Of a stretch of DNA of 41,964 nucleotides, positions 1 to 41,964 are shown one piece after another. The stretch spans positions 1 to 41,964 of the forward strand of contig JAPPHD010000021.1 of NCBI GenBank assembly GCA_028821125.1. The letters are read 5' to 3'. The stretch comes from Gammaproteobacteria bacterium (lineage in GTDB: Bacteria; Pseudomonadota; Gammaproteobacteria; Pseudomonadales; Azotimanducaceae). Numbering within the stretch: the stretch's first letter is position 1; each line of letters starts with the position of its first letter. The translations under genes were made by a program, and so were the position numbers. The notes below the pieces were generated by a model. It had not been told where the DNA came from and made no database searches. It was given only the letters and a program-made list of their open reading frames with translations.

Positions 1-60
1 TCCGCTTGGCGTGCCGGATGTCCGTACCGCATGCCCGCTCTCGGAGCCGGATCGAAGGAT
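1..60 (+). repeat. Family A hairpin element, copy A1 (left part outside window)
   Basis: This is the right-hand part of the intergenic hairpin element that recurs at 22334-22570 and 41791-41964. Positions 1-11 match the end of the family loop (TCCGCTTGGCG). Positions 12-42 match the 31-nt right arm with four substitutions. The following GATCGAAG is shared with copy A2. The left arm lies before base 1. The element ends about 30 bases from the stop codon of bfr, so it sits downstream of that gene. No AT-rich tail is seen after it, unlike copies A2, B1 and B2; it was either lost or never present. Confidence 0.75.
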
Positions 61-19562: not shown

Positions 19563-21515
19563 ATGCGAATTTCCGCATCGACCGGCCGACGGTCGGCCGC
19601 CGCCGTATTGGCGGCGTTTCCGTTCGCGCTCTGCCTCGGAGTGGCCGACATCGGCAACGCGGCGGCCGCAACCCTGTACGAACAGCGGCAACTTTACCGG
19701 CAGGCGGTGGACCACGTTCGTACCGGACGCATCACCGCGGCCCGGAAGATTCAAGAACAGCTCGACGGCTATCCCCTGCAGCCCTACATCACCTATCACG
19801 AGCTGCGCCTGCGCCTGTCACGCCTCACGCCCGACCAGGTCAACCGTTTCCGGCATGAGCATCCCGACATACCCGGCGCGCACCGCATCTACCGGCAGTG
19901 GCTCGTAAAGCTGGCCGCAGGCCGACAATGGCAGGCCTTTCTGGACAACTACGAACCCGCCGCCCCCGGGGAGCCGCTCGCCACGGAATTGCGATGCCTT
20001 TATCTGCGCGCGCTCTACAACACGGGCCAGCGGGAACTGGCGTTGAACGGCGTGGCTCCGGTATGGACGGCCGGACAGTCCCAACCCAAAGCCTGCGACC
20101 CGATGTTCCAGGTATGGCAGAGCAGCGGCCTCGACCAGGACACCGCCTGGCGCCGCCTCAGGCTCGCCATTGAGGCCAACGAACGGCAGCTTGCCCGCTA
20201 CCTGCAGCGCTTCTTCTCCGGCGACCACAAGCCCTGGGCCCAGTCCTACTACAACGTGCACGTCAATCCGGCCTCGGTCCGGCGAACCAGCCGGTTCCGC
20301 ACGGACACTCCCCTCTCCCGGGAGGTCATCGCCCATGGCCTGCGTCGCCTGGCGCCCCGGGATGCAGAGGCCGCGCGCGATGCCTGGGCCAGCTACAGGA
20401 CGACGCACAGGTTCAGCGAGGCCGCACGGCGCGCCCTCACCGCACGTATCGATGTCGAACTGGCGCGCACGGGCCTGCTGGACGATGCACGCACCTCCGA
20501 CATCGTGGCGTCCACCGCCGCCGACTTCGCCGAAGCCTACCTGCACCGGCGCAACTGGGCGTTGCTGTCGGCCTGGATCGAACGGCTGCCGGACAAGCAG
20601 CGTTTCGAAGAGAAGTGGCAATACTGGCTGGCGCGCGCCCTGACGAAAACCCACGAGGCCAGTGACCGGGCCCGGCTCGCCTACCAGGCGCTGGCCGGCA
20701 AGCGCTCCTACTACGGCTTCCTGGCCGCCGACCGCATCGGCCAGGCGCCACAACTGAACTTCAAGCATCGGCCCGATGCCGGCGGGTTCGACAAGGTGCG
20801 GCAACTGCCCGCCATCGCCCGGGCAACCGAACTGTTTGCGGTGGGCGACGAGGTGAACGCCCAGCGCGAGTGGATGGCCATGCTGCCGAGGCTCACGCCC
20901 GAGGAGCAGAGCATGGCCGCCTACCTGGCCAAGGACCTCGGCCGCCTGATACTGGCGATTCGCACCGCCAATGAAACCGGTCAGCGCAATCACCTCGACG
21001 TGCGATTCCCGATCGATCACACGCCCACCTTCCAGCAGACCAGCCACGCCACCGGCATCCCCCTGCCGATGCTGCTCGCCTTCGCCCGCCAGGAGAGCAT
21101 TTTCAACCGGCACGCCCGGTCCACCGCCGACGCCAGGGGCGTCATGCAGATGCTGCACAGCACCGCCCGCTACGCCGCGCGCCGCGCCGGCATGCCGGCG
21201 CCTTCCGCGACCGACCTGTACGACCCGACAGTCAACATTCCCCTGGGCGGGCACCACATCGCCTTCCTGCTCAGGCGCTACGACCAGTCGCTGCCCCTGG
21301 CCGCTGCCGCCTACAACGCCGGAGAATCCCGTGTCGCCAAGTGGCTGAGGGACGCCGAAGGCTGGCCGATGGATGTGTGGATCGAAACCATTCCCTTCAA
21401 GGAGACCCGCAACTACGTGAAGAACGTGCTCTCCTTCAACCAGGTGTACAGCCAGATGCTCGGTCAGCCCCAGCCCATGCTGCGAGCCCACGAAGCCTTC
21501 GTGCCCCCACGGTGA
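19563..21515 (+). CDS. slt: Soluble lytic murein transglycosylase
   Basis: A 650-residue periplasmic enzyme that cleaves peptidoglycan glycan strands to form 1,6-anhydromuramyl products. A signal peptide of about 36 residues ends near GNAAAA. A long alpha-helical superhelical domain follows, then the lysozyme-like catalytic domain with Glu511 in FARQESIF, GVMQML, and AAAYNAGESRV. The length is close to E. coli Slt70 (645). It starts 2 bp after usp and overlaps tatD by GTGA. Confidence 0.95.
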   Translation: MRISASTGRRSAAAVLAAFPFALCLGVADIGNAAAATLYEQRQLYRQAVDHVRTGRITAARKIQEQLDGYPLQPYITYHELRLRLSRLTPDQVNRFRHEHPDIPGAHRIYRQWLVKLAAGRQWQAFLDNYEPAAPGEPLATELRCLYLRALYNTGQRELALNGVAPVWTAGQSQPKACDPMFQVWQSSGLDQDTAWRRLRLAIEANERQLARYLQRFFSGDHKPWAQSYYNVHVNPASVRRTSRFRTDTPLSREVIAHGLRRLAPRDAEAARDAWASYRTTHRFSEAARRALTARIDVELARTGLLDDARTSDIVASTAADFAEAYLHRRNWALLSAWIERLPDKQRFEEKWQYWLARALTKTHEASDRARLAYQALAGKRSYYGFLAADRIGQAPQLNFKHRPDAGGFDKVRQLPAIARATELFAVGDEVNAQREWMAMLPRLTPEEQSMAAYLAKDLGRLILAIRTANETGQRNHLDVRFPIDHTPTFQQTSHATGIPLPMLLAFARQESIFNRHARSTADARGVMQMLHSTARYAARRAGMPAPSATDLYDPTVNIPLGGHHIAFLLRRYDQSLPLAAAAYNAGESRVAKWLRDAEGWPMDVWIETIPFKETRNYVKNVLSFNQVYSQMLGQPQPMLRAHEAFVPPR

Positions 21516-22342
21516 TCGATGTCGGCGCGAACCTGCTGAACGGGCAGTTCCGCGGCGACCTGCACGCGGTGCTGGCACGCGCGAGGCAGGCCGGCATCGA
21601 ACACATCGTGGTCACCGCAACGAGCCTGGATGACGCCCGGGCCGCGAAGGAACTGTGCGCCATGCATGCGGACCTCTCCTGCACCGCCGGCGTGCACCCG
21701 CACCTGGCAAAGGATGTCGAGCCGGGCTGGCGGGAACGGTTGCTGGAACTCGCGCGGCATCCCTCAGTGCGCGCGATCGGCGAGACGGGCCTCGATTTCA
21801 ACCGCAATTTCTCCCCCCCCGAACAGCAGCGCCACGTGTTCTGCAAACAGATCGAGGTTGCCGGCGAACTCGACATGCCCCTGTTCGTACACGACCGCGA
21901 CACCGACGGCGCCGTCCACGAGGAACTCGCCGAATTCCGGGGCCCGCCCGAACAGGTGCTCATCCACTGTTTCACCGGCACCGAAGAAGACCTGAAACGT
22001 TACCTGGATGCAGGCTACTCGATCGGCATCACGGGTTGGCTCTGCGATTCCTCCCGCGGCGAGGATCTGCGCCGCCTGGCGCCCGGCATCCCCCTTGACC
22101 GCCTGCTCATTGAGACGGACGCCCCGTTCCTGTTTCCCCACGGCGCCGCGCCACCAACCGGCCGGCGTCGGCGCAACGAACCCTGTCTGCTGCCCTTCAT
22201 CGCCAAAACCCTGGCCCACCTTTACGGGCTGCCGGTGGAAGAACTCGTGCGTCACACCACAGCCAACGCGCGACGTTTTTTCAGGCTGGACACGCCACAA
22301 CAAGGGGTCCAGCGGGTTTTTCCCCAGCGGCATGGGCGCTGA
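21512..22342 (+). CDS. tatD: TatD-family metal-dependent deoxyribonuclease
   Basis: A 276-residue TIM-barrel hydrolase of the TatD family (amidohydrolase fold; 3'-5' exonuclease/DNase in E. coli). It starts VIDVGANL, like E. coli TatD, then TAGVHPH, IGETGLDFNRNFS, LFVHDRD, IHCFTGT, GITGWLCD and LIETDAPFL. The GTG at 21512 overlaps the slt stop as GTGA. It is about 16 residues longer than E. coli TatD. Its stop codon lies within the left end of hairpin element A2, so the last few codons may have been created or altered by that insertion. It is not near any tat translocase genes. Confidence 0.92.
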   Translation: MIDVGANLLNGQFRGDLHAVLARARQAGIEHIVVTATSLDDARAAKELCAMHADLSCTAGVHPHLAKDVEPGWRERLLELARHPSVRAIGETGLDFNRNFSPPEQQRHVFCKQIEVAGELDMPLFVHDRDTDGAVHEELAEFRGPPEQVLIHCFTGTEEDLKRYLDAGYSIGITGWLCDSSRGEDLRRLAPGIPLDRLLIETDAPFLFPHGAAPPTGRRRRNEPCLLPFIAKTLAHLYGLPVEELVRHTTANARRFFRLDTPQQGVQRVFPQRHGR

Positions 22343-22570
22343 CGCGCAGGGAACAGAACCACGCTGGGAGAGAGCAGGTGTGCGGTGCGGGTATCCGGCA
22401 CCTTTAAAGCACCCCTGCGCCCTCGAATTCCACGACAACGCGTCCGCTTGGCGTGCCGGATACCCGTACCGCATACCTGCTCTCGGCGTCTGATCGAAGA
22501 GGCTGTTTCAAATTCGATTGAATCTAAAATATATAATAAAAACAATTAGTTGTAGTTTTTTCCATGAAAG
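22334..22570 (+). repeat. Family A hairpin element, copy A2, with AT-rich tail
   Basis: The left end (22334-22369) matches copy A3. The left arm is 22370-22400, the loop 22401-22453 and the right arm 22454-22484. The arms are 31 nt and pair with two G-U positions if the plus strand is transcribed. The loop differs from that of A3 at only two positions. The tail (22485-22570) is very AT-rich, contains TATAAT at 22532-22537, and ends TCCATGAAAG, as in element B2. The whole 325-bp stretch between tatD and the C39-like gene is this element plus 97 bp (22571-22667), which hold only short GC-rich repeats and the ribosome site GGGGG. The element may supply a promoter for the downstream operon, though no convincing -35 is seen. 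Confidence 0.85.
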
Positions 22571-29966: not shown

Positions 29967-30014
29967 ACTACGCGGCCGCGAATTTCGATGAGAATCCCCC
30001 CGGCGAGACGGAAC

Positions 30015-30231
30015 GAGGACGTGGAAGGAAAAACGCCGAATCTAGGGAAAGAGTTCGTATGCGGCGCTTCCCTTTCGGCGCGTTAAGCTCGTCTGAGAAC
30101 CTTGAATGCAGCAGGATGATGTGGCCGTGCGCCGAAAGGGAAGCGCCGTATGCGAACTCGCTGTCGCGACTGACGATGTTACGTCAAACAATATTTCTAT
30201 AAAATCAAAGGCTTGAATATTGTTCCATGAA
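30015..30231 (+). repeat. Family B hairpin element, copy B1
   Basis: The left end from GAGGACGTGG (30015) matches copy B2. The left arm is 30051-30081, the loop 30082-30128 (47 nt) and the right arm 30129-30159. The 31-nt arms differ at two positions, both G-U if the plus strand is transcribed. After the right arm, CTGACGAT and an AT-rich tail run to CCATGAA (30225-30231), aligned throughout with B2. The tail holds TATAAA at 30198-30203, a possible -10 for the downstream operon. The final ATG is in frame with moxR. Confidence 0.85.
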
Positions 30232-41468: not shown

Positions 41469-41533
41469 TTGCGGAGCCGGTCTGTCGATTGATTTATGCC
41501 TCCAAACAACCAAGTTTCGCCTGGCGCCCGGAT

Positions 41534-41769
41534 GAGGACGTGGAAGAAACAACGCCGAATCTCGGGAAAGGGTTCGCATGCGGCGCTTCCCTTTCGGCGC
41601 GTTAAGCTCGTCCGAAAGCCTCGCGTCTTGCTGAATGCCTTGCGTACAGCAAAAAAAGAGGCCGTGCGCCGAAAGGGAAGCGCCGCATGCGAACTCGCTG
41701 TTGAGACTGACGATATTAGTTCAAATAACTTTTTCTTTAAAATCAAAAAATTAAGTTTTGCTCCATGAA
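41534..41769 (+). repeat. Family B hairpin element, copy B2
   Basis: Matches B1 from GAGGACGTGG to CCATGAA. The left arm is 41570-41600, the loop 41601-41665 (65 nt, diverged from B1 and partly A-rich) and the right arm 41666-41696. The 31-nt arms pair completely with one G-U. The AT-rich tail ends TCCATGAAAG (41762-41771), like A2. It lies downstream of the MocA-type gene, and element A3 follows within about 20 bp. The 65 bp before it (41469-41533) hold nothing recognised. Confidence 0.85.
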
Positions 41770-41790
41770 AGTTCCCAACCCGGCCGGCCG

Positions 41791-41964
41791 GGACGCTGAC
41801 GCGCAAGGAACAGAAACCCGCTGGGAGAGAGTAGGTGTGCGGTGCGGGTATCCGGCACCTTTAAAGCACCCCTGCGCCCTCGAATTCCACGAAAACGCGT
41901 CCGCTTGGTGTGCCGGATACCCGTACCGCATACCTGCTCTCGGTGTCGAGTCACTGGTATTATG
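41791..41964 (+). repeat. Family A hairpin element, copy A3 (right end outside window)
   Basis: Starts like A2 with GG.CGCTGACGCGCA. The left arm is 41827-41857, the loop 41858-41910 and the right arm 41911-41941. The loop and right arm are almost identical to A2; the left arm pairs with three G-U positions. After the right arm, GGTGTC is shared with A2 in part, and then the window ends before any tail could be seen. Confidence 0.85.

Follow-up and report, generated by a model that had tools for sequence, protein, structure and literature searches.

A long hairpin recurs along one gammaproteobacterial contig, raising the question of what kind of sequence it is and how it reached its sites. 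The stretch analyzed here (the window) is 41,964 bases long and belongs to assembly G000, whose 193 contigs total 5.28 Mb (completeness, 97.3%; contamination, 2.45%). The first-pass annotation had described three near-identical copies outside genes and proposed recent spread or strong constraint; it did not foresee that the hairpin is just one part, the core, of a bigger modular element, nor that some copies lie on start codons. We consider it probable (about 0.65) that the hairpin, core A, is the core of a small, non-autonomous, modular mobile element inserted 3′ of CATG, with the copies at start codons forming mRNA leaders.

Copies and architecture of the element

A profile of core A matched all three copies in the window, the first by its right-hand part (Table 1). 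Their reported positions therefore stand, but three is the count of the window alone: the DNA fetched from G000 holds at least 38 full A cores (34 distinct; spanning at least 113 of 115 positions), together with 47 full cores of a second hairpin, B (39 distinct; at least 107 of 109 positions), two of which lie in the window. A genome search that took the 237-base copy as its query returned 80 match rows, several of which are one copy read on both strands (40 of 180 candidates were scored). For the left end (LE), the count in G000 is at least 99, a sequence-only LE model having matched 99 of 99 scored candidates. The copies have unrelated flanks and are spread over dozens of contigs; thus, a single segmental duplication, which the annotation had named as grounds for abandoning its reading, cannot explain them. 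Many are found at contig ends, since repeats are expected to break an assembly. In line with the annotation, which did not recognize the copies as REP, BIME, ERIC, or a known riboswitch, a scan of the window against Rfam 15 gave no match at the gathering score, and the seven sub-threshold matches at E ≤ 1 were all microRNA hairpin models far below their cut-offs.

The whole element measures approximately 245 to 258 bp and comprises a 49-nt LE, a long-hairpin core, and an AT-rich right end (RE), with no gene of its own. Complete A copies always read CATGNRAG-(5 nt)-AACCCGGCGCGCCGGGACGCTGACGCGCAAGGAACA (the LE, as a consensus from an alignment of 34), approximately 14 nt, the hairpin, and the RE, which ends in AATCAA....TTGAA..TTGTTCCATG. 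The same LE and RE also flank core B, which is 109 nt long and has a different 32-bp stem; overall, their content is A, B, or a nested hairpin C, and some of them enclose nothing. Among 139 LE rows over all genomes, a set that includes contig-end rows and weak or reverse-strand matches, 48 go with B, 45 with A (one with both), 12 with C, and 44 with none of the three. By eye, there are no terminal inverted repeats beyond CATGRAA on the left versus TTCCATG on the right. No sigma-70-like promoter was found around A2.

These ends redraw the copies in the window. A3 begins at 41764 rather than 41791, while A2 is devoid of the first 27 nt of the LE. The right part of A2 is the RE module, which A3 would also show had the contig not ended. 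Likewise, the description “outside genes” was loose, for A2 holds the stop codon of a TatD gene (open reading frame [ORF] 21341 to 22342) and other copies abut start codons. Tandem copies that share one CATG, as B2 and A3 do, are frequent; they were flagged at 22 of 98 left ends and 16 of 70 right ends by a rule that misses some of them.

Table 1. Element parts located in the window
Feature	Position	Strand	Basis
A1, 3′ part of core A (core positions 74-115), cut by contig start; RE not recognizable	1..42	+	
A2, LE remnant (LE positions 28-49), holding the TatD ORF stop (ends 22342)	22334..22355	+	
A2, core hairpin A, 32-bp stem and 51-nt loop	22370..22484	+	
A2, AT-rich RE, ending in TTTTTTCCATG; CATG 22563-22566, then host AAAG 22567-22570	22485..22566	+	
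B1, degenerate LE of a core-B element	29993..30030	+	profile match
B1, core hairpin B, 32-bp stem and 45-nt loop	30051..30159	+	
B1, right end, ...TTGTTCCATG; a 329-aa MoxR-type AAA ATPase ORF starts at its ATG (30227)	30160..30229	+	
B2, left-end remnant of a B element, in tandem before A3	41524..41551	+	profile match
B2, core hairpin B, longer-loop variant	41572..41696	+	profile match
B2, right end; its CATG (41764-41767) doubles as the beginning of the A3 LE	41697..41767	+	
A3, complete left end, CATGAAAG...GGAACA	41764..41812	+	profile match
A3, core hairpin A	41827..41941	+	profile match
A3, right end, beginning only, cut by contig end	41942..41964	+	

Several variants of this architecture were observed. 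Some A loops contain a nested hairpin C (GGGTCGCCACCGGTCGGGCGCAGCCC...), whose position varies and which goes with loss of part of A (L058, L060, L061, L073, L131, L144, and L151). At three contig ends (L150, L156, and L159), another sequence (...GTAAGCGTTCGGTCGTCCCGTGACGG...) follows LE position 43. The RE of many G000 copies, and of two copies from relatives (L087 and L088), often contains TTATGTTAAAT or TTATGTCAAAT. These motifs resemble the XerD half of a dif site, but a complete dif-like site did not turn up.

As RNA, the 115-nt core A is predicted to fold into one stem of at least 32 pairs (−78 kcal/mol), which corrects the 31-nt arms given before. We aligned 33 A cores from G000 with four from G008, a genus mate, and found 98.3% of stem cells paired and both partners changed in 13 of 32 pairs, against a mean of 3.4 in shuffles, which do not keep relatedness. 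None of 500 shuffles reached any of five measures, and slid structures gave two to four pairs; the G000 cores alone gave six two-sided pairs. In the B stem (33 cores), 98.6% of cells were paired and 11 cells were changed on both sides versus 2.4 in shuffles (0/500, as for the score), with no excess of two-sided pairs (2 of 32 versus 1.6; 288/500 shuffles). Cells with G·T versus A·C stood at 77:7 in A and 79:2 in B, where a single always-G·T pair supplies 33 of the 79, leaving 46:2 without it. Since G·T pairs hold in RNA or single-stranded DNA of this strand and become A·C on the other, the LE-to-RE strand is either constrained or more deaminated, and deamination of cytosines biased toward one strand may account for part of the excess. 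The A loop bases are conserved in another species too. As for the ends, the LE contains a conserved palindrome, but the small hairpins proposed for it find no covariation support; a candidate RE hairpin, CAAN..NTTG, was discarded as inconsistent.

Borders, empty sites, and start codons

Element borders follow a single pattern: host CATG, the element, ending as above, and then host NRAG. At 54 right ends with no following element, CATG was present at 96 to 100% per base, followed by N (C, 59%; A, 30%), R (98%), A (96%), and G (98%), after which there was no consensus. Over 76 left ends, the four bases of CATG reached 76, 92, 96, and 99%, preceded by a weak TGTTC that may be inflated by unflagged tandems. 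These statistics, drawn from 98 left and 70 right ends, provide the sharp borders that the first-pass annotation had listed, next to many copies and empty sites, as signs of a mobile element. CATG itself is present at both ends of the element, whereas the two NR dinucleotides agree in 7 of 32 elements versus 9.2 expected; therefore, there is no duplication beyond CATG. The simplest reading is that the element inserts 3′ of CATG in a host CATGNRAG and ends in its own CATG.

Empty sites were found at two genes. For an A copy at ilvC (L015), ilvC and the preceding gene were matched in all eight genus mates, in which the matched flanks lie 46, 47, 49, 50, 75, 107, 118, and 155 nt apart, compared with 300 nt in G000; the element matched none of the eight ilvC contigs of these mates. 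In G000, the sequence reads GGGAGGAATGAAC-ATG to the left of the element and ATGAAAGTTTATTAC to the right, while relatives read, e.g., AACAGGATTGACC-ATGCAAGTCTATTACGAC, and the G000 gene resumes with ATGAAAGTTTATTACGAT after the element. For a B copy at a crotonase gene (L097), four relatives (G002, G006, G007, and G008) start with ATGAAAGTGGAATC (ATGAAAGTGG), sharing the same ATGAAAG, and carry no element in the preceding 90 nt; here only the gene side could be aligned, the relatives offering no match to the left flank of L097. The crotonase gene of G003 is also free of the element and has a different start. Both insertions lie exactly on the start codon, and a second ATG stands at the right end of the element.

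Among 18 ORFs that begin at the ATG of the RE and were picked for length, 15 have a Pfam domain (10/10, 4/7, and, in the window, 1/1). In eight of them, encoding HyuB, an epimerase, IlvC, PanC, crotonase, Ham1/RdgB, a GspI-like type II secretion pilin, and LptC, the domain begins at residue 2 to 15; therefore, the ATG of the RE is the true start there. The start-codon insertions are a list of cases and not an enrichment: by ORF length, 14 of 40 RE ends versus 16 of 55 other CATGNRAG sites, a background that includes ATGs inside genes, gave a P value of 0.66. Some copies leave no gene at the RE. Of the elements that have an ORF of at least 100 aa at the RE, 3 of 8 show a Shine-Dalgarno-like motif left of the LE; of those without such an ORF, 3 of 15 do.

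How could a gene work with such an insertion? An enzyme acting in trans would place the element 3′ of a CATG, and where that CATG holds a start codon, the element would become a long mRNA leader in the sense direction. The stem of approximately 32 bp, as modeled, would fold in the mRNA between the old ribosome site and the gene; by analogy with Correia transcripts, it is probably an RNase III processing site. The AU-rich RE, ending in a fresh ATG, would then let the gene be translated again. If so, the copies form a dense natural set of long hairpins between the ribosome site and the frame of working genes (ilvC, panC, lptC, rdgB, and crotonase), and the element-free orthologues in relatives make it testable how the cell tolerates a double-stranded leader of this length on a needed mRNA.

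A more elaborate possibility is that the element captures start codons, landing on CATGNRAG and taking over the gene's ribosome site and ATG, so that ribosomes unwind the hairpin, stop, and restart by translational coupling. In A elements, the frame from the left ATG does cross the LE and the hairpin into the RE over 68 to 80 codons, stopping 8 to 11 nt before the duplicated ATG of the gene in 6 of 10 rows (one without an ATG); 4 of 10 do not fit. The B frames stop after 33 codons in six of nine rows. We regard this scheme as rather doubtful; were it true, insertion on a start codon would be nearly harmless and the hairpin a tunable switch. Also against it, the loop shows no codon-position bias (10, 4, and 7 variable sites at codon positions 1, 2, and 3), for which reason a coding function for A was rejected as well.

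Relatives and known repeat families

Among 58 relatives' genomes, five gave matches to the A query, G000 itself included; G002, G006, and G008 have cores, and G014 has only 24 nt of the LE. A degenerate pattern of the loop found seven stretches in named records, four in SB0675_bin_3 and three in Pseudomonadales p16x65bins.14, both of which we take to be sponge-associated metagenome-assembled genomes. The LE is present in G006, G007, and G008, in G014 (another genus), and weakly in G087 (a third genus); a search with the LE model had hits at E ≤ 0.01 in 6 of 61 family genomes, of which G067 contributed three marginal ones. Contigs of G014 and G008 are broken at LEs. Elements of 127 to 131 nt that consist of LE and RE with no long hairpin occur in G007 and G008 (L087 and L088), and in G006 and G007, the LE and RE surround another hairpin, D (L085 and L093). 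As the ends occur with other cores or with none, ends and cores are separable. Plasmids, phages, and viral contigs gave no match to A; viral contigs also gave none to an LE pattern, and plasmids none to B.

Cores A and B are probably old relatives, judging from the A-like core of G002, which has its apical loop in common with B (0 of 1,000 shuffles as good); the link is weaker through three other cores (2, 19, and 365 of 1,000). Within G000, homology between A and B is not visible (633/1,000 shuffles as good). The A-like cores of G008 (L037, L038, L040, and L043) are without LE and RE, and their outer arms differ yet stay complementary. In G007, an 87-nt unit, CATGGAAGCCCTTAGC...TTTGTTC, occurs at the same junction in tandem with LE-RE elements (L087, L093, and L096), as does a 20-nt mini unit.

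The element appears to be a new family of small non-autonomous repeats, similar to BOX and Correia elements, with BOX and ERIC compared by description only. Literature searches found no paper naming this LE/RE hairpin family, which says little. To our knowledge, the enzyme that moves BOX-like modular repeats is unsettled, and the common ends and swappable cores described here offer a handle for finding it. As described in PMC3049150, the BOX elements of streptococci have constant ends of approximately 50 nt, interchangeable inner modules, and approximately 100 copies per genome, fold when transcribed, and can form reading frames. The present element likewise has constant end modules around variable inner ones; in contrast to the tandem boxB units of that account, it carries one hairpin of approximately 110 nt, A or B, which is swapped.

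The Correia elements of Neisseria (CREE/NEMIS), as PMC2649163, PMC2229807, and PMC10969869 present them, are small, non-autonomous, and located 5′ of genes; RNase III is reported to bind and cleave the hairpin of their transcripts (PMC2649163 and PMC10969869), and they have terminal inverted repeats of approximately 24 bp, TA termini, and a target duplication (PMC2229807). Our element can also abut an ATG and carries a long predicted transcript hairpin, but it has neither such TA-bounded terminal repeats nor a duplication beyond CATG; its inverted repeat is internal, and its ends are CATG-NRAG and TTGTTC-CATG. It resembles miniature inverted-repeat transposable elements (MITEs) in being short, non-coding, and multicopy, with empty sites, but not in terminal inverted repeats or target-site duplication.

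Repetitive extragenic palindromes (REPs) and their RAYT (TnpA-REP) proteins are a further point of comparison; from what is given in PMC3733652, PMC8266576, and PMC6006769, REPs are palindromes of 20 to 40 bp with a GTAG/GTGG or CGTC tag at the foot. Much like the present element, they are numerous, lie between genes, encode nothing, may be moved in trans, and occur nested and in clusters. The present element differs in its 115-nt core, whose A stem alone has 32 bp, in being untagged in 33 of 34 cores, and in that G000 shows no RAYT. ERIC and the Rickettsia palindromic elements presumably differ from it in sequence. They share with it, by the descriptions in PMC10969869 and PMC2229807, the character of palindromic repeats of approximately 130 to 150 bp that enter transcripts and genes.

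What may move the element, and other explanations

Two kinds of helper enzyme could be guessed at: a single-stranded-DNA (HUH) enzyme would fit the tetranucleotide rule, without the enzyme itself or end hairpins, and a recombinase would fit the tandem junctions. Under the first, the element would move in the manner of IS200/IS605 or REPs, with its hairpins as folded DNA, an HUH transposase in trans, and CATG both as the target tetranucleotide to its left and as the last four bases of its right end. As in IS200/IS605, the tetranucleotide flanks the left end and a similar one closes the right end, with no target duplication and no terminal inverted repeat, a pattern that agrees with the HUH rules as described in PMC6006769; the fold is also strand specific, and a RAYT-type Y1 protein is encoded in G002, G006, and G008, the three genus mates with A-like cores. 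Yet a search for Y1 transposases (PF01797), positive in 5 of 14 control genomes, gave no match at E ≤ 0.001 in the incomplete assembly of G000, nor was Y1_Tnp found in G007, G014, or G087 despite their LEs. No cognate transposase with the same ends was found: neither A nor the LE matched next to any of the three RAYT genes. GTRG precedes the stem by at most 8 nt in 1 of 34 cores and CGTC in 0 of 34, and the hairpins proposed inside the LE lack covariation. Moreover, orientation relative to GC skew is weak and opposite to lagging-template insertion (36 of 94 positive), and the conserved host NRAG right of the site is not needed by this mechanism. We see single-strand transposition as possible, if unlikely, and have set aside the Y1 proteins as partners, as there is none in G000 and those of G002, G006, and G008 adjoin, by eye, hairpin D.

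G002, G006, and G008 each encode a single 215-aa RAYT-like Y1 protein (L197, L198, and L199) with GGAGCGAGGGCGTCCCGCCCTCG hairpins on its flanks. This hairpin is the D of L085 and L093, located between LE and RE, i.e., a REP inside a modular element.

Somewhat less probable, in our view, is that a site-specific recombinase, tyrosine or other, recognizes the CATG-NRAG junction as its short attachment site, so that head-to-tail tandems with one shared CATG arise. The flagged tandem copies with their single CATG and the doubled NRAG of element and host would fit a crossover site, and G000 encodes a multicopy tyrosine recombinase (Pfam Phage_integrase; 23 matches to its first 66 aa), some copies of which join an LE. 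However, the joint is at LE position 43, not at CATG, and is seen in either orientation, and L176, an intact copy, does not adjoin an LE. We therefore rejected this integrase as the autonomous form of the element and read its copies as islands that landed in the LE.

Could the hairpin instead be a cis-regulatory RNA, a riboswitch- or attenuator-like leader kept for regulation, with mobility secondary? Conservation of the loop bases across species, stem covariation, and positions at gene starts in mRNA sense would all agree with such a role, but the flanking genes have no common theme, copies occur in tandem and nested, cores are swapped between the same ends, and some copies have no gene to regulate at the RE; we consider it very unlikely. 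Finally, for all the fragmentation and contamination of the assembly and the many copies at contig ends, we give practically no weight to chance, segmental duplication, or an assembly or binning artefact, which is refuted by the ilvC locus lying in genus-typical synteny and further opposed by the unrelated flanks on dozens of contigs and the related cores in other species. Mobility of a modular element, the preferred reading, also bears out the proposal of recent spread or strong constraint, through its 38 full A cores, borders, empty sites, and constrained stem.

The islands themselves carry a P4-like tyrosine integrase and join the LE right after position 43 (GACGCGCAA), or the remaining part of the LE, in both orientations (L139, L143, L157, L162, L174, L177, L178, and L185; L017, L058, and L175). 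The LE repeat seems to serve as a landing site for these integrase islands.
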